Source: Candidatus Kaiserbacteria bacterium (GTDB lineage Bacteria > Patescibacteriota > Minisyncoccia > Phycocordibacterales > UBA2100). From it: DNA of 46,722 bases. A program made the position numbers and the translations under genes. Shown piece by piece: positions 8,016 through 43,857 of this stretch (positions are counted from its first letter, which is position 1; each line of letters begins with the position of its first letter). The notes below the pieces were generated by a model. That model searched no databases and was not told the origin of the DNA. It saw nothing but the letters and a program-made list of their open reading frames with translations. The stretch lies in assembly GCA_016867375.1 (NCBI GenBank), contig VGJQ01000004.1, positions 1 to 46,722 on the forward strand. The letters are read 5' to 3'.

Positions 8016-8134
8016 ATATTCCCTATCTGACGCTATAGCGTCAAATAGGGAATATGAGGAAGGCTCAACCTTCCTCAAGTACACAAGTCAGACTTGTGTA
8101 CTTGCTCCAGATATGTCGAGGTCAGACCTCGACA
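8016..8134. repeat. cluster of four tandem palindromes after the sortase gene
   Basis: Four palindromes fill this part of the 357-nt spacer. 8016-8055: arms ATATTCCCTAT around TGACGCTATAGCGTCA. 8055-8077: arms TGAGGAAGG with a 5-nt loop. 8076-8104: perfect 14-1-14 palindrome centred GTCAGAC. 8114-8134: perfect 10-1-10 palindrome, also centred GTCAGAC. The rest of the spacer holds the 7878-7906 promoter and the 7931 hairpin; I see no gene in it. Confidence 0.85.
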
Positions 8135-15133: not shown

Positions 15134-15167
15134 CCGCCGAGCTTCGCGCTCGGCGGTCTTCTTTTTC
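15134..15167. terminator. terminator between paralogue B and pheT
   Basis: 9-bp stem CCGCCGAGC / GCTCGGCGG with a 5-nt loop, then TCTTCTTTTT on the plus strand. It touches the pheT stop codon at 15167. Confidence 0.8.
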
Positions 15168-17044
15168 TAGCGGATTTCAAAACCCTTTGCAGAGAGCACC
15201 GTTGATACTTTTTGCATGATCAGATTGACCTCTTCGTCGGTGAGGGTCTTTTCAAATGACTGGAAGATCAGTCGGAATGCGAGCGAAGTCTTGTCGGCCT
15301 TGGTGAAGGTGTCGAAGAGCGCAACGCGTTGCAGTAATTCCCCCGATTCTTTTTTGAACACGTCTGAAATGTAGGATCCGACGGATCCTACATTTGCTTC
15401 GTGGTGTAATGTTGACGGAGTCCAGAAGGCGATATCGCGGACGATATAGGGATAACGTGAATACGGTGCATAACGAATCGCGGCTGATGTGGGTAGATTA
15501 ATGTAGGACATCGGATGTCCTACATTTTGCGTGTGCTCGGAGAGAGGTTTTTCGGATGCTTTTCCTTTTTCGGTGATGGTGCCGACCATCTGTATTTCTT
15601 TGGCGTCAGGCCATACGGTCCCTATCTCGAAGAGTTTGATCTCTTTGAGTCCGAGCAAGTCCTTGTTTGGGATATTTTTCTTGAGCGCCTCGGTGAGTCC
15701 GTCGATGAGTGTCGTGCGCAGGTACGGGCGTACGCCGTCTACCTTGTTGGCGACGACGCGTTCGCCCTTTTCCGCAAAGACACTGGTGAAGACCTCGCTG
15801 TAGCCTTGCGCAATCAGGTCCTCGCGGATACGTTCGGCTGCCGCGAAGCTGTGATTGATCTCTGGTAGGGCGGTGCTCGGTGGTAAGGGTGTCGAGGGGA
15901 CTTTGTCGTAGCCTAGGTGGCGGCCAACTTCTTCGATGAGTTCTTCGGGAATCGTGAGATCGAGGCGCTCAAAGGGGGGTGTGACGGTGAAGACGGGAGC
16001 CGGTGATAAGTCTGACTTATCACCATGGTGATAAGTCTGACTTATCACCGGCTCTTGCACGAAAAGTAATCCGAGGCGGGTGAATACGTCGGACACTTCG
16101 TCGGTGGTGATGCTCATGCCAAGGGTTTTGTTGATATGGTCGAGAGTGACAGAGACCGGCTTGATCTCCTGCTTTACGGGATAGGCATCAGTGAAGCCGA
16201 CGATCTCCCCACCAGCGATCTGCTGGATTAGGAGTACCATGTCGCGCATGGCATAGGCTGGCCATTCGGGCGACATCCCCTGCTCGAAGCGTGCCGATGC
16301 ATCAGTGCGGAGCTTCATGTGTTGTGCGGCTTTTCGGACCGCAGCGCCATCGAAGCTCGCGGCTTCGATGATGATGTCTTTGGTGTCTTCGGTGATGGAT
16401 GCAGGCATACCGCCCTTTACTCCCGCGACGCCGATTGCTGTGCTGTCATTGGAGATGACGAGTATCGATGGATTGAGCGTGTATTCTTTCCCGTCGAGTG
16501 CCAGTAATTTTTCCCCTTCTCTTGCAGGGCGGATGTCTATTTGATATTTTTCGTTTTTTGTTTTTAATTTTCCTGCATCAAATGCGTGGAGGGGTGCTCC
16601 GATATTGAACATGACGAAGTTGGTCGCGTCGACGACGTTGTTGATCGACTTCTGTCCCATCTTTTCCAGGTATGAGACGAGCCACTGCGGCGAGGGTGCT
16701 ACCTTGACATCGCGGATGTATCCGGCGATGTAGCGATGGCAGCGCGGGTCGTCGATTGATACCGAGACCGCGTCTGTCTGCGGTGATAAGTTTAACTTAT
16801 CACCGAGTGGGTGATTTTTGAGGGGGATGTTCAAGATCGCCGATATCTCTTTGGCAATGCCACGATATGAGAGGCAATCGTGCCCCCTATTGGCGGTGAC
16901 CTTTACATCGAGGATATGATCATCGCCATGCTGCTCGATCCCGTCGATCTCAAAGACGTGGAAAGTGAGCGCATCGGCGAGGGTGTCCGCATCGGGAAGC
17001 GGAGTATCAAAGAAAGCCTGGAGCCATGCGCGTGAGATTTTCAT
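15167..17044 (-). CDS. pheT: phenylalanyl-tRNA synthetase beta, without the inserted OB domain
   Basis: 625 aa, beta subunit of PheRS. The N-terminus passes directly from EIDGIEQHGDDHILDVKV to TANRGHDCLSYRGIAKEI, so the tRNA-binding OB domain (~110 residues) found between these segments in E. coli-type PheT is absent. The B3/B4 editing region, B5, the synthetase-like core and a C-terminal FDX-ACB domain (SLAFRLIFQSFEKTLTDEE) remain. Four palindromic DNA elements lie in frame and encode loop peptides such as GDKSDLSP, GDKLNLSP and QNVGHPMSYINL. The ATG overlaps the TGA of the upstream gene (ATGA), so translation is probably coupled. Confidence 0.95.
   Translation of the reverse strand: MKISRAWLQAFFDTPLPDADTLADALTFHVFEIDGIEQHGDDHILDVKVTANRGHDCLSYRGIAKEISAILNIPLKNHPLGDKLNLSPQTDAVSVSIDDPRCHRYIAGYIRDVKVAPSPQWLVSYLEKMGQKSINNVVDATNFVMFNIGAPLHAFDAGKLKTKNEKYQIDIRPAREGEKLLALDGKEYTLNPSILVISNDSTAIGVAGVKGGMPASITEDTKDIIIEAASFDGAAVRKAAQHMKLRTDASARFEQGMSPEWPAYAMRDMVLLIQQIAGGEIVGFTDAYPVKQEIKPVSVTLDHINKTLGMSITTDEVSDVFTRLGLLFVQEPVISQTYHHGDKSDLSPAPVFTVTPPFERLDLTIPEELIEEVGRHLGYDKVPSTPLPPSTALPEINHSFAAAERIREDLIAQGYSEVFTSVFAEKGERVVANKVDGVRPYLRTTLIDGLTEALKKNIPNKDLLGLKEIKLFEIGTVWPDAKEIQMVGTITEKGKASEKPLSEHTQNVGHPMSYINLPTSAAIRYAPYSRYPYIVRDIAFWTPSTLHHEANVGSVGSYISDVFKKESGELLQRVALFDTFTKADKTSLAFRLIFQSFEKTLTDEEVNLIMQKVSTVLSAKGFEIR
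15367..15395. repeat. 29-nt single-base-centre palindrome in pheT
   Basis: Perfect 14-1-14 palindrome with arm AAATGTAGGATCCG and central A. It lies in frame and encodes the loop around EANVGSVGSY. Confidence 0.9.
15500..15526. repeat. 27-nt single-base-centre palindrome in pheT
   Basis: Perfect 13-1-13 palindrome with arm AATGTAGGACATC and central G. The identical 27-mer recurs after murF at 42528-42554. Confidence 0.92.
15997..16054. repeat. 58-nt double palindrome in pheT
   Basis: Two identical 23-nt palindromes (arm GGTGATAAGTC, central T; 16002-16024 and 16027-16049) inside an outer GAGCC/GGCTC pair. The whole forms a near-perfect larger palindrome. It is in frame and encodes GDKSDLSP-type peptides. 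Confidence 0.92.
16781..16803. repeat. 23-nt single-base-centre palindrome in pheT
   Basis: Perfect 11-1-11 palindrome, arm GGTGATAAGTT, central T. One base per arm differs from the copies at 16002 and 16027. It encodes LGDKLNLSP. Confidence 0.9.
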
Positions 17045-17454: not shown

Positions 17455-18243
17455 TTAGAATTGGTTAACGAACCTGAGGTCGGCGCTGTGCATGTGGCGG
17501 ATGTCGTCGATGCCCCAACGCAGGAGTGCGAGGCGGTCGAGGCCCATGCCGAATGCGAAGCCGGAATAGGTGTGTGGGTCGACACCGGCGTTCTTGAGGA
17601 CATTGGGGTGGACGAGCCCCGCACCCATCATCTCGATCCAGCGATTACGCAGCTTTTCGGGGACATGTTCCCCAACCAAGCGCATATCGACTTCGACGGA
17701 AGGCTCAGTAAACGGAAAGAAGCTCGGACGGAAACGTATCTCGACGGATGCATCACGGAAGATGCCGGCAAAGAACGCTTCGAGTGTACCTTTGAGATGT
17801 GCGAGCGAAATCCCCTCCCCTACGACGAGGCCCTCGATCTGGAAGAACTCCGCTTCATGTGTCATGTCAGTCGCTTCGTTGCGGAAGACTTTGCCGGGGA
17901 CAATGATGCGATATGGCGGCTGTATACCCTTTTTGATCTGCTCTTCCATGTAGCGGATTTGCACAGGGCTGGTATGCGTGCGCAAGACCTCTGTCACAGC
18001 AAGGTCCGACCTTGCTGAACTCAGCAAGGTCGGACCTTGCTGTGATGCAATGTGCGGCTTGATGAAAAAGGTGTCTTGCATGTCGCGTGCGGGGTGATCT
18101 TGCGGCACGTTGAGTGCGTCGAAATTGTGCCACTCGTCTTCAAGTAAGGGACCTTCGGCAAAGGTGAATCCCATATCGAAAAAGATCCGGTTGGCTTCGC
18201 GGATCAGCGATGAAATAGGATGAATGTGTCCCCTCTCTGGCAT
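17455..18243 (-). CDS. pheS: phenylalanyl-tRNA synthetase alpha, N-terminally reduced
   Basis: 262 aa from the ATG at 18243; the frame is open to 18318, but that extension is not PheS-like and a TATACT box lies 6 nt before this ATG. The protein begins at the catalytic module (HPISSLIREANRIFFDMGFT, EDEWHNFDALN). The N-terminal tRNA-binding coiled coil of ~85 residues in other bacteria is missing. Motif 2 (FRNEATDMTHEAEFFQIEG) and motif 3 (FGMGLDRLALLRWGIDDIR) are intact. A 20-residue insert after DTFFIKPH coincides with a 52-nt palindrome. With PheT also lacking its OB domain, tRNA contacts are reduced on both subunits. Confidence 0.94.
   Translation of the reverse strand: MPERGHIHPISSLIREANRIFFDMGFTFAEGPLLEDEWHNFDALNVPQDHPARDMQDTFFIKPHIASQQGPTLLSSARSDLAVTEVLRTHTSPVQIRYMEEQIKKGIQPPYRIIVPGKVFRNEATDMTHEAEFFQIEGLVVGEGISLAHLKGTLEAFFAGIFRDASVEIRFRPSFFPFTEPSVEVDMRLVGEHVPEKLRNRWIEMMGAGLVHPNVLKNAGVDPHTYSGFAFGMGLDRLALLRWGIDDIRHMHSADLRFVNQF
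17994..18045. repeat. 52-nt near-perfect palindrome inside pheS
   Basis: Two single-base-centre palindromes (GTC-C-GAC and GTC-G-GAC centres) in tandem, joined by AACT, in an outer TCACAGC/GCTGTGA pair. Mismatches lie only at the middle. The DNA is in frame and encodes an insert absent from other PheS proteins. Confidence 0.92.
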
Positions 18244-18249
18244 AAAAGC

Positions 18250-18255
18250 AGTATA
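18250..18255 (-). promoter_or_regulatory. -10 box of the pheS operon, leaderless type
   Basis: TATACT on the minus strand, 6 nt before the pheS ATG. A weak TTCAAT lies 16 nt upstream. No Shine-Dalgarno. Confidence 0.55.
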
Positions 18256-18296
18256 ACGTAGCGAGTCATGGATTGAAAACGGATGGAGCGAGTTGG

Positions 18297-18392
18297 TAAG
18301 GGCTCGTCCACAAATCACATACTCGTTATTTGTGGACTACACTTATGGGTCCGTTCATTTGGTGTTGAACTTATTTATGAACGGGACCTAAG
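18297..18392. repeat. structured 95-nt repeat, copy 1
   Basis: Shares TAGGGCTCGTCCACA-like start (TAAGGGCTCG here), TGTGGACTACACTTATGGG, CCGTTCAT and ATGAACGGGACCTAA with copies at 22343, 24194 and 26342. Two hairpins: GTCCACA/TGTGGAC and CCGTTCAT/ATGAACGG. It lies between divergent pheS and the glycosyltransferase gene. Confidence 0.85.
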
Positions 18393-20832: not shown

Positions 20833-20890
20833 TAATCCGTAAGGCGTCGCCTCACGGATTAGTAAGGCGTCGCCTTACGGATTACGCCTT
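20833..20890. repeat. AAGGCG-T-CGCCTT palindromes
   Basis: 20833-20861 is a 14-1-14 palindrome with one mismatch (arm TAATCCGTAAGGCG). It is followed by a second AAGGCG-T-CGCCTT copy. The same core recurs at 38103-38121. The rest of the 334-nt spacer (20643-20977) holds the repeat at 20672; I see no gene. Confidence 0.8.
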
Positions 20891-28225: not shown

Positions 28226-28254
28226 GAAATTACAAAGCGACGCTTTGTAATTTC
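28226..28254. repeat. 29-nt single-base-centre palindrome after atpC
   Basis: Perfect 14-1-14 palindrome, arm GAAATTACAAAGCG, central A. It begins 4 nt beyond the atpC stop and overlaps no gene. Confidence 0.9.
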
Positions 28255-30463: not shown

Positions 30464-31420
30464 CTACCTCATCGCCTCCATGCCCGATGTGATCTCGGAT
30501 ACTTCGCGGGTGATGGCTGCTTGGCGGGCTTTGTTGAAATGGCGGGTGTAGGATTTGACCATGTCTTTGGCCTTGTCGGTCGCGCTCTTCATGGCGACGC
30601 GGCGTGCGCTGTGTTCGGACGCTTTTGATTCGATGAATGCGTGGAAGACCATGATGTTGATGAGGCGCGGAAGGAGCTCTGCGAGGACCTGATCGACGGA
30701 GGGTTCGACGAGATAGATCGCTAGGGGTGGGACGGGTGCCTCGCTGCGGGGAGCGTAGCGTCCGCGCGCGGGGCGGATGCCGGCGACCGTCTCGCGGACT
30801 GCTTCCGGCGTGACGGGTATGACCTGGTGCGCGAGCGCCTCTTGCTCAAATGTCGAGATAAAATTCGTGTATATGACAAGGCATGTGTCGATCTCCCCGA
30901 CTGCATGCCAAGAGAGTAGTTCATCTGTGATGGTGCGCAGGTCGGATTCGGAGAGATCATCGCTGACGTTTTCCCTGCGGATGCGGACATCGTAGCCGCG
31001 ATTGGCGAAGTGTTCGGCGCCACGGCGGCCGATCGCGATCATGATCGTCTGCTCGGGTCCTAGGTTGCGTGCGGCGATTTCGTGTTCGGCGCGGCGGATG
31101 ACGGAGCTGTTGAGCGAACCGGCAAGCCCTTTGTCGCTCGTCACTATGATAAGGCAGGTGCGAAATTTGGGTTTCGTAAACCCAAAATTTGGGTTTACGA
31201 AACCCAAATTTCGCACCATGAGGGGGTGATGCGAAGTGTCCAGGGATCTGGAGAGGTGCTCAAGGACGGAGAGAGCGGCGGCGGCATAGGCGCGGCCGGC
31301 GAGCGCGCGCTCTTGGGTCTTGCGCATCTTGACCGCGGAGACGGCTTCCATGGCGTGGGTCACCGTCCCCGTCTTGCGGTACGACTGGATTTTGATTTTT
31401 ATGTTTTTGAGGCTGGCCAT
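30464..31420 (-). CDS. atpG: ATP synthase gamma subunit
   Basis: 318 aa, the central rotor stalk. The N-terminal helix (ASLKNIKIKIQSYRKTGTVT, HAMEAVSAVKMRKTQ) and C-terminal helix (RRVAMKSATDKAKDMVKSY, FNKARQAAITREVSEITSG) are canonical, as is LIIVTSDKGLAGSLN. An insert just before that strand (MVRNLGFVNPNFGFTKPKF) is encoded by a 61-nt perfect palindrome. The start lies just after the stop of the coiled-coil gene (TAG-CATC-ATG), with no Shine-Dalgarno, suggesting coupled translation. Confidence 0.95.
   Translation of the reverse strand: MASLKNIKIKIQSYRKTGTVTHAMEAVSAVKMRKTQERALAGRAYAAAALSVLEHLSRSLDTSHHPLMVRNLGFVNPNFGFTKPKFRTCLIIVTSDKGLAGSLNSSVIRRAEHEIAARNLGPEQTIMIAIGRRGAEHFANRGYDVRIRRENVSDDLSESDLRTITDELLSWHAVGEIDTCLVIYTNFISTFEQEALAHQVIPVTPEAVRETVAGIRPARGRYAPRSEAPVPPLAIYLVEPSVDQVLAELLPRLINIMVFHAFIESKASEHSARRVAMKSATDKAKDMVKSYTRHFNKARQAAITREVSEITSGMEAMR
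31157..31217. repeat. 61-nt perfect palindrome inside atpG
   Basis: 30-nt arms (starting GGTGCGAAATTTGGGTTTCG) around a single central base. No mismatch. In frame. Confidence 0.95.
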
Positions 31421-38102: not shown

Positions 38103-38121
38103 CGTAAGGCGTCGCCTTACG
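38103..38121. repeat. CGTAAGGCG-T-CGCCTTACG palindrome
   Basis: 9-1-9 perfect palindrome. It shares its arms with 20833-20890 and is followed by a partial ACGCCTTACG copy. Confidence 0.85.
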
Positions 38122-40699: not shown

Positions 40700-40730
40700 A
40701 CGTAGTCTAGTCCACGTAGTCTGACTACGT
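40700..40730. repeat. ACGTAGTC repeat and GTC-T-GAC palindrome
   Basis: ACGTAGTC occurs twice, the second copy as an 8-1-8 palindrome with its complement (40714-40730). The centre is the GTCNGAC form seen elsewhere. Confidence 0.8.
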
Positions 40731-41835: not shown

Positions 41836-41864
41836 CATTGTAGAAAGTCAGACTTTCTACAATG
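41836..41864. repeat. 29-nt single-base-centre palindrome
   Basis: Perfect 14-1-14 palindrome, arm CATTGTAGAAAGTC, central A (GTCAGAC centre). Intergenic. Confidence 0.92.
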
Positions 41865-42526: not shown

Positions 42527-42555
42527 TAATGTAGGACATCGGATGTCCTACATTA
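42527..42555. repeat. 29-nt single-base-centre palindrome at the murF stop
   Basis: Perfect 14-1-14 palindrome, arm TAATGTAGGACATC, central G. Its inner 27 nt are identical to the in-gene copy in pheT (15500-15526). Its last bases form the murF TAA stop. Confidence 0.93.
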
Positions 42556-43857
42556 GCGGTCGAGCCATTCGGGGTCTTGGCGGACGAGGAGCTCTGAAGC
42601 GCGGTCCGGCTCGGCCATGATCTCAAGGACGGTCTTTTCCATACGTATCCCTTGTGAGCCTTTAATGAGGACTATATCGCCTTCTTGTATTTCTGGTTCG
42701 AGCTCTTTGCCAGCGCGGACGGATTCGTTTTGCTCGTATTCACGGATATGGGTATCGGGCATACCGGCATCAAGCGCCGCCTCTCCTATCGCGCGTGCGC
42801 GGAAGCCGACGGTGAGAAGCATATCTGCGCAGGCGGCGGCACGTACACCTACGGTGCGGTGCGCATCGGCGCTGTATTTGCCCAGCTCAAGCATGTCGCC
42901 CATGATCGCGATCTTTCGCCCCTTGGTCTGTATCGAGGTGAGTGTGTCGAGTGCGGCGAGGGCGGCTGCGGGCGAGGAATTGTAGGTGTCGTCGATGATG
43001 GTGGAGCCGCGAATGCCGCGGAGGATGCGGAGTCTGCCTGGCGAAGGCTCCCAGTATGAGAGGTCTCCGGCTGCTGAGACGGCGTCGATACCTGCTGCTC
43101 CTGCTGTAGTGAGTGCAGCGAGCGCGGCATACACGCGCGGGCGACCCAAGGCGCCGGTGAGCGAGACAGGCACCGATACTTCCGGTGAGGGGGTCTTGGT
43201 GTGTACTTCGATGCGGAATCGGATTCCGATTGGCGCGCCATTCTCATACAAAATCTCTTCATGCGAGGCGCTGTATTCATTCTCTGGCGAGAGGCCGTAG
43301 GTCACACACAGGCCCGGGTATTTGGAGCGGAGATCACGAATGCGCGGGTCGTCGCCGTTGACGATAAATGTGCCGCCGGGCTTGAGGTGCTCGATGAGCG
43401 CACTCTTCTCGCGCAACAGAGCTTCAGGAGAATCGAAATACTCTACATGGGCGGGTATCTCAGGGATGCCTGTAATCAAAGCTATGTCGGGGCGCAGCCA
43501 CGATGCGATCGAGCGGATGTCCCCTGGCCGGTCGGCGCCTACTTCGAGCACGAGCCAATCGGGATAGCGTGCGGGGCGGATGACGACAAGGAGTCCGCGG
43601 ATGATATTCCACAGCCATTTCACGGGATTGTGCCAGGCATTGTCCAGGCCGAGGATGGTGAGCGGGACGCCGATCTCGCTGTTGAAGCTTTTTTCACTCT
43701 TGCGTACATGGAGATGATCCGAGAGTGCGGCGAAAATCGCGTCTTTGGTGGATGTCTTGCCGACCGAACCGGTGACGGCGATGATGCGTGGCTGGTGACG
43801 CTTCAAGACCGCACGCGCTTCCCAGGTAAGTATATGTACGATGATTTTTTTGAGCAT
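42553..43857 (-). CDS. murF: UDP-MurNAc-tripeptide--D-Ala-D-Ala ligase
   Basis: 434 aa; adds D-Ala-D-Ala to the peptidoglycan precursor. The ATP-binding loop GSVGKTSTKDA lies at 30-40. SEKSFNSEIGVPLTIL and VLEVGADRPGDI are typical of MurF. The central domain carries VNGDDPRI, and the C-terminal domain DDTYNSSPAAALAALDTL, GDMLELG and LIKGSQGIRMEK. It lies downstream of ftsI. TATAAT lies 19 nt before the ATG. Confidence 0.93.
   Translation of the reverse strand: MLKKIIVHILTWEARAVLKRHQPRIIAVTGSVGKTSTKDAIFAALSDHLHVRKSEKSFNSEIGVPLTILGLDNAWHNPVKWLWNIIRGLLVVIRPARYPDWLVLEVGADRPGDIRSIASWLRPDIALITGIPEIPAHVEYFDSPEALLREKSALIEHLKPGGTFIVNGDDPRIRDLRSKYPGLCVTYGLSPENEYSASHEEILYENGAPIGIRFRIEVHTKTPSPEVSVPVSLTGALGRPRVYAALAALTTAGAAGIDAVSAAGDLSYWEPSPGRLRILRGIRGSTIIDDTYNSSPAAALAALDTLTSIQTKGRKIAIMGDMLELGKYSADAHRTVGVRAAACADMLLTVGFRARAIGEAALDAGMPDTHIREYEQNESVRAGKELEPEIQEGDIVLIKGSQGIRMEKTVLEIMAEPDRASELLVRQDPEWLDR

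Follow-up and report, generated by a model that had tools for sequence, protein, structure and literature searches.

The window, the whole 46,722-nt stretch of DNA that was analysed, is contig C4 of a genome assembly of 1,008,099 bases in 50 contigs (G000, 96% complete). The host is an ultra-small Kaiserbacteria-like Patescibacterium. Among the genes of the window are pheT, pheS, and atpG, and scattered through and between genes are odd palindromes, in which two arms mirror each other around a single central base (Table 1). An Rfam search of the window returned two tRNAs and nothing else. The original prediction had listed perfect 29-mers together with shorter or one-mismatch forms, and a direct scan of the window located all of them. 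Beyond that list, the scan added a pair in pheS and a 61-nt palindrome within atpG.

Table 1. Features of the window; odd palindromes are labelled REP following the reading favoured in the text, and predicted RAYT genes are given as contig:coordinates.
Feature	Position	Strand	Palindrome form	Context
REP, arm family GTACACAAGTC	8076..8104	.	perfect 29-mer	intergenic; core has 6 perfect genome copies
REP, arm family TGTCGAGGTC	8114..8134	.	shorter, perfect	intergenic; cognate RAYT C11:4814-5536
pheT	15167..17044	-		five REPs in frame
REP TGTAGGATCCG-A-C..	15367..15395	.	perfect 29-mer	in frame in pheT; 8-aa insertion vs nearest relative and congeners
REP family TGTAGGACATC	15500..15526	.	shorter, perfect	in frame in pheT; same REP at orthologous place in nearest relative G043; cognate RAYT C31:3945-4616
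REP doublet (REPIN/BIME-like) GGTGATAAGTC x2	16002..16049	.	shorter, perfect (16002 and 16027)	in frame in pheT; 17-aa insertion; loop holds unrelated odd palindromes in other congeners
REP GGTGATAAGTT	16781..16805	.	shorter, perfect	within pheT
pheS	17455..18318	-		REP doublet in frame
REP doublet CAGCAAGGTC	17997..18042	.		in frame in pheS; 18-aa insertion vs G043; cognate RAYT C5:42482-43183
REP pair, arms CGTAAGGCG	20833..20878	.	one-mismatch 29-mer (20833)	intergenic; one mismatch in first copy
REP family AATTACAAAGCG	28226..28254	.	perfect 29-mer	intergenic; cognate RAYT C14:1368-2054
atpG (ATP synthase gamma)	30464-31420	-		carries 61-nt REP doublet
REP doublet, family TTTGGGTTTCGTAAACCCAAA	31157..31217	.		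in frame in atpG; cognate RAYT C35:5531-6217
REP, arms CGTAAGGCG	38103..38121	.	shorter, perfect	intergenic
Short REP ACGTAGTC-T-GACTACGT	40714..40730	.	shorter, perfect	intergenic
REP, arms TGTAGAAAGTC	41836..41864	.	perfect 29-mer	intergenic
REP family TGTAGGACATC	42527..42555	.	perfect 29-mer	3' edge of Mur-ligase gene 42553-43857 (-)

Perfect palindromes with a single-base centre and arms of at least 9 nt are in clear excess. The window has 14 where Markov shuffles give 0.5, and the genome has 149 where one Markov-4 control gives ~5. The predicted bias of the centre was borne out genome-wide, with GTC-N-GAC accounting for 72 of the 149, followed by GCG-N-CGC (27), GCC-N-GGC (9), and ATC-N-GAT (8). 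The proposed constant 14-1-14 geometry of 29 nt did not survive the same survey. Arm lengths spread from 9 nt up, with 27, 30, 30, 20, 12, and 12 palindromes at 9, 10, 11, 12, 13, and 14 nt, respectively, and 14 nt is not a peak. The apparent 29-mers are family cores of 17–25 nt extended by a variable mirrored flank. Sharing of arms, first noticed for two pairs, is real and far wider, with TGTAGGACATCGGATGTCCTACA present in 7 copies, one of them mismatched.

Sorting the 149 palindromes by arm gives ~20 families with core arms of 8–12 nt, exemplified by TGTCAAAAGTC, GTACACAAGTC, GGCACAAGTC, GGTGATAAGTC, TGGAGAGTC, CAGCAAGGTC, TGTCGAGGTC, TGTGGAGGTC, TGTGCAAGCC, ACACGAAGC, ATGTAGGACATC, ATTACAAAGCG, and AAAAGGCG. 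Many palindromes form close inverted or direct doublets that jointly make one larger palindrome, an arrangement known as BIME or REPIN. A GTAG/GTGG foot is clear only in the families of the transposase genes on contigs C31 (GTAG..CTAC) and C6 (GTGG..CCAC), plus a few minor arms, and a foot search found no shared tetranucleotide in the flanks of the remaining families.

The source genome also encodes a set of candidate partners for these families. A search with PF01797 (Y1_Tnp) recovered 12 genes and a weaker 13th, 11 of the 13 above the family cut-off, and matches occur in 45 of the 52 genomes of the genus. The products are 223–261 aa long. All 13 have the H-x-H motif, an Arg, and the Tyr without variation, and they share His and Arg residues upstream. 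Eight of the ten tested match the NCBIfam model 'REP-associated tyrosine transposase' under its curated cut-off (best E 8e-12), while those on C6 and C11 have zero NCBIfam matches. A profile search matches PDB entry 4er8, the E. coli TnpA_REP (E 0.0017), and a single-sequence PDB search with one of the proteins as query gave no real match. For the AlphaFold model of one product (mean pLDDT 84), the top Foldseek match is 4er8 (E 6e-5), a RAYT structure solved with a REP hairpin bound. The 13 genes are read as RAYT/TnpA_REP-like Y1/HUH transposase genes.

Each RAYT gene is flanked by palindromes of a private family. Named by contig, the pairs are C5 with CAGCAAGGTC, C10 with GGCACAAGTC, C6 with GTGGAGGTC, C11 with GTCGAGGTC, C14 with ATTACAAAGCG, C25 with TGGAGAGTC, C23:1315 with ACACGAAGC, C27 with TGTGCAAGCC, C31 with ATGTAGGACATC, C1 with GGAACC, C22 with GAAGTC, C35 with TTTGGGTTTACGAAACCC, and C23:15230 with AAAGGCG. 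RAYTs C22, C35, C23:15230, and C1 have further private palindromes alongside. Within 500 bp of a RAYT lie 25 of the 149 palindromes against 3.2 expected, an 8-fold excess. Among RAYT-near palindromes, 22 of 27 belong to that RAYT's own arm family, which was never reached in 20,000 label shuffles, a permutation test that is partly circular because the families were named from RAYT flanks. The nearest relative, G043, displays the same pattern with other arms. Its RAYTs are flanked by TGGAAGGTC, TGGCGTAAGTC, and TGCGAGAATC, the first of these being its own dominant family. Within the source genome, the C6 REP (GTGGAGGTC-A-GACCTCCAC) and the C11 REP (GTCGAGGTC-A-GACCTCGAC) have arms one mirrored base pair apart. 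For the window families GTACACAAGTC, GGTGATAAGTC, and TGTAGAAAGTC, a matching RAYT is absent from the 96% complete assembly.

Because each RAYT has a private arm family whose palindromes flank it, and in several cases also interrupt the gene in frame, we conclude, at a probability of roughly 0.9, that the odd palindromes are REPs, single or in inverted doublets like REPINs/BIMEs, of about a dozen separate REP-RAYT systems. By analogy with known TnpA_REP biochemistry, each RAYT, a putative Y1-tyrosine HUH nuclease of the TnpA_REP or IS200-IS605 kind, would recognise its own arm family as a single-stranded hairpin and would cut and rejoin it during replication, scattering copies. A perfect palindrome with a one-base apex would fold to a hairpin whose centre base would be the sole strand marker. 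Mobility of the REPs and the single-strand mechanism are argued from known relatives, and the mode of arm turnover is likewise an inference. The original prediction had offered two explanations. The first, a mobile palindromic element with a conserved centre, draws support from the shared arm families, the cognate transposase genes, and the in-frame insertions missing in relatives.

Copies inside genes are frequent. By the calls of a home-made gene caller, on which these counts depend, 54 of the 149 odd palindromes fall inside predicted genes, with each of the three phases represented, and 79 are intergenic; the coding share of the genome is 82%. Hosts of in-frame copies include pheS, pheT, atpG, gatA, uvrA, uvrB, ligA, and mnmA, as well as genes for Dus, TsaD, a UvrD-type helicase-nuclease, MiaA, an IF-2-like GTPase, and a class-V aminotransferase, with the names gatA, mnmA, miaA, and ligA resting on family matches or alignment. 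The TsaD gene (C37:2834-4192) holds at least five odd palindromes in frame. Orthologous sites were compared in full with G043. Among the 41 comparable copies, 18 are length insertions of 4–24 aa, 8 show no length change, and 15 were scored as a palindrome at the same place in both species, though for two of these 15, which make up the pheT doublet, the match is a coincidence of 7 nt and the site in G043 is empty apart from it. Under the REP-RAYT reading, frame-keeping insertions would persist where a surface loop or linker is permissive, and this would explain why the same pheT and gatA loops carry palindromes across several species. In-frame copies reveal which protein loops accept insertions.

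This distribution also bears on a purely functional view, in which the palindromes would be immobile and maintained by selection, either as RNA hairpins (terminators or mRNA stabilisers) or as protein-binding sites. The many intergenic copies could act as RNA, but a third of copies sit inside genes in any reading frame, convergent gaps are not enriched (14 of 91 intergenic copies against 114 of 663 gaps), and the families turn over among close species. A functional origin is hardly credible on these grounds, and an intrinsic terminator or other RNA function was rejected given the lack of convergent-gap enrichment and the many copies in genes.

The genome also contains palindromes with even centres. 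Two even families, of 16 and 26 copies, are never found within genes, unlike the odd ones. A dispersed family of the form GTCCACACATAACG-NNNN-CGTTATGTGTGGAC comprises about 63 elements with arms CACAxATAACG (e.g., C10:21415 and C5:22556), has zero copies inside genes, and is almost missing from the nearest relative. Another, GGCTGACAATTTTCCCAATTGGGAAAATTGTCAGCC, is a 38-nt perfect even palindrome in 19 copies (e.g., C8:16971 and C16:14054). It is only intergenic, lies between convergent genes in 8 of 18 cases, and its main form is missing from G043; it could be terminator-like or another mobile repeat. In the window, an even palindrome with a GACGCTATAGCGTC core and TATTCCC-type arms occupies 8021-8058, just ahead of the odd REPs at 8076 and 8114. 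This family has five intergenic copies in the genome and none in G043.

Many orthologous places hold different families in the source genome and G043. The pheT loop at residue 330 contains ATGAGGTC, ATGAGATG, or GGTGATAAGTC palindromes, whose carriers are scattered over the species tree, needing five changes and clustering no more than shuffles. A single origin of this insert was considered and finds no support in the tree. ATGAGATG is a multicopy family in several congeners, and part of the site sharing is repeated insertion into tolerant loops such as this one. Across congeners (G034, G022, and G003), the linker of gatA varies in content: where some species have REPs, others have different short repeats of a tandem-like kind (GAACAGC..., AATCCGAA...). 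The gatA match in G003 has one in-frame TGA.

Repeated independent insertion into a few tolerant loops, instead of inheritance with change of arms, might account for the shared sites as a whole, and would be compatible with the REP-RAYT reading. The scattered pheT carriers, the fact that the pheT REPs come from families with multiple copies in some of the carrier genomes, and the general length variability of the gatA linker point this way. Other sites do not fit as easily. An in-frame REP lies within the RAYT gene itself in C5, C10, C6, C11, and C27 of G043, ahead of the HUH motif in C5 and C10 and past the Tyr in C6 and C11. In C6, C11, and C27 of G043 the internal palindrome shares an identical codon and phase with no alignment gap. 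Similarly, in the aminotransferase gene (C30:3843 in the source genome, C23:4478 in G043) both doublet centres fall on exactly corresponding bases, although the four arms all differ, and do so in step. Nor was a common target motif found in the REP flanks, where positions beside the core carry no more than about 0.34 bits each. With evidence on both sides, independent insertion as the general cause of site sharing is an evenly balanced proposition.

The arms of the internal palindromes in C6, C11, and C27 of G043 are GTGGAGGTC, GTCGAGGTC, and TTGGAAGGTC, respectively, and in each case the core equals the repeats flanking the gene. The arms of these three homologous RAYTs differ mirror-wise. 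This pattern looks like inheritance with coordinated arm replacement, for which conversion, homing, and precise re-insertion are candidate routes. When the specificity of a RAYT lineage shifts, its REPs may be rewritten at the sites they already occupy, such that scattered 20-nt elements evolve in concert, although we hold this only tentatively. New mirrored arms would be installed by RAYT-directed homing or by hairpin-templated conversion, and overwriting of this kind would cover copies locked in frame in genes and in the RAYT itself.

Mirroring also extends beyond the arms. Outside the family core, a mirrored flank is lacking in 14 of 77 distinct family/extension combinations against 58 expected, and reaches at least 3 nt in 30 of 77 against about 1.2, an excess that is inflated if the cores of some families were drawn at least one base shorter than they are. 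Such flanks could come from a copying step templated by the hairpin. This relates to the second explanation in the original prediction, a replication template switch that writes perfect palindromes. In the form of template switching at hairpins (quasipalindrome correction), it would copy one arm from the other, and so write and perfect palindromes with no transposase. Flanks mirrored far above chance and the mirrored change of arms at homologous sites agree with it, but it does not explain why ~20 families recur with shared arms at numerous unlinked loci, nor why they pair so tightly with RAYTs. As an account of the palindromes it is very improbable, and, in view of the shared families and the RAYT pairing, pure template switching was rejected as the main cause. 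It may still operate in addition to REP dispersal, where it may explain the perfect arms, the mirrored flanks, and the joint change of arms.

Patescibacteria are regarded as streamlined, and a ~1 Mb genome with 13 RAYT genes and well over 100 REPs, several of them within indispensable genes for translation, ATP synthase, and repair, contrasts with that image. A PF01797 match was found in 67 of 145 sampled genomes of the phylum, with at most 8 in every other genome listed. A published survey places such transposase genes mainly in large genomes (PMC6006769). A search of a library of open-licence papers found no report of REP/RAYT in Patescibacteria. With its many RAYT/REP pairs side by side, and near-identical ones such as C6 and C11 among them, the genome is a natural setting in which to test REP recognition by RAYTs and the switching of arm sequence in a REP population.

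Among known systems, the REP-RAYT (TnpA_REP) pairs or REPtrons of Proteobacteria (PMC2817692, PMC8266576) likewise combine multicopy short palindromes, single or in inverted pairs, with a Y1/HUH transposase gene flanked by each family and with a related fold and catalytic motif. In the broad sense of REP-RAYT, multicopy shared arms, conserved HUH and Tyr residues, and transposase genes flanked by their own family are all present here. The E. coli REPs are imperfect, with a bulge and a GTAG foot, whereas those described here have perfect arms and a one-base apex, usually without GTAG, and 13 RAYTs share 1 Mb. As most families lack a GTAG/GTGG foot, they are not canonical GTAG REPs. Group 3 RAYTs have perfect palindromic REPs, but with loops of 3–4 nt and GTAG (PMC8266576).

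TnpA_Y1 subclass 2.4, or RAYT group 4, has 'double foot' REPs and REPs in frame inside the RAYT genes themselves (PMC6006769). The mirrored foot (5' GT[AG]G with 3' C[TC]AC) recurs here in the C6 and C31 families, though not in most others. The internal REP of subclass 2.4 generally lies between HUH and Tyr (PMC6006769), in contrast to its position before HUH or after Tyr here. In-frame REPs and dimers in DNA repair and tRNA-related genes are shared with the intragenic GTAG/CGTC REPs of Opitutus terrae and Rickettsia conorii, and recB of two Xanthomonas species holds different REPs at about the same site (PMC3733652). The present elements differ from the Opitutus and Rickettsia REPs (PMC3733652) in lineage, in having no unpaired GTAG or CGTC head, the GTC sitting at the apex instead, and in the presence of RAYTs, cognate to many of the families. 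They likewise fall outside the CGTC-tagged class, which is marked by an unpaired CGTC at one end and by having no transposase of its own.

Rickettsia palindromic elements (RPE) resemble the copies described here in that they too are palindromes inserted into coding genes with the reading frame preserved. RPE-1-type elements are longer, at about 100–150 bp, compared to unit cores of 17–25 nt and doublets of about 50–60 nt here, and they are not known to have a RAYT partner. Precedents exist for REPs and RAYTs as such, and for REPs located within genes, RAYT genes included. By described features, the double-foot and RAYT-internal REPs of subclass 2.4 (PMC6006769) come closest. Several features are unusual here: the REPs are perfect, with a single-base apex and mostly no GTAG foot; many cognate pairs share each megabase; the host belongs to this particular lineage; and arms are replaced in a coordinated way at fixed sites.
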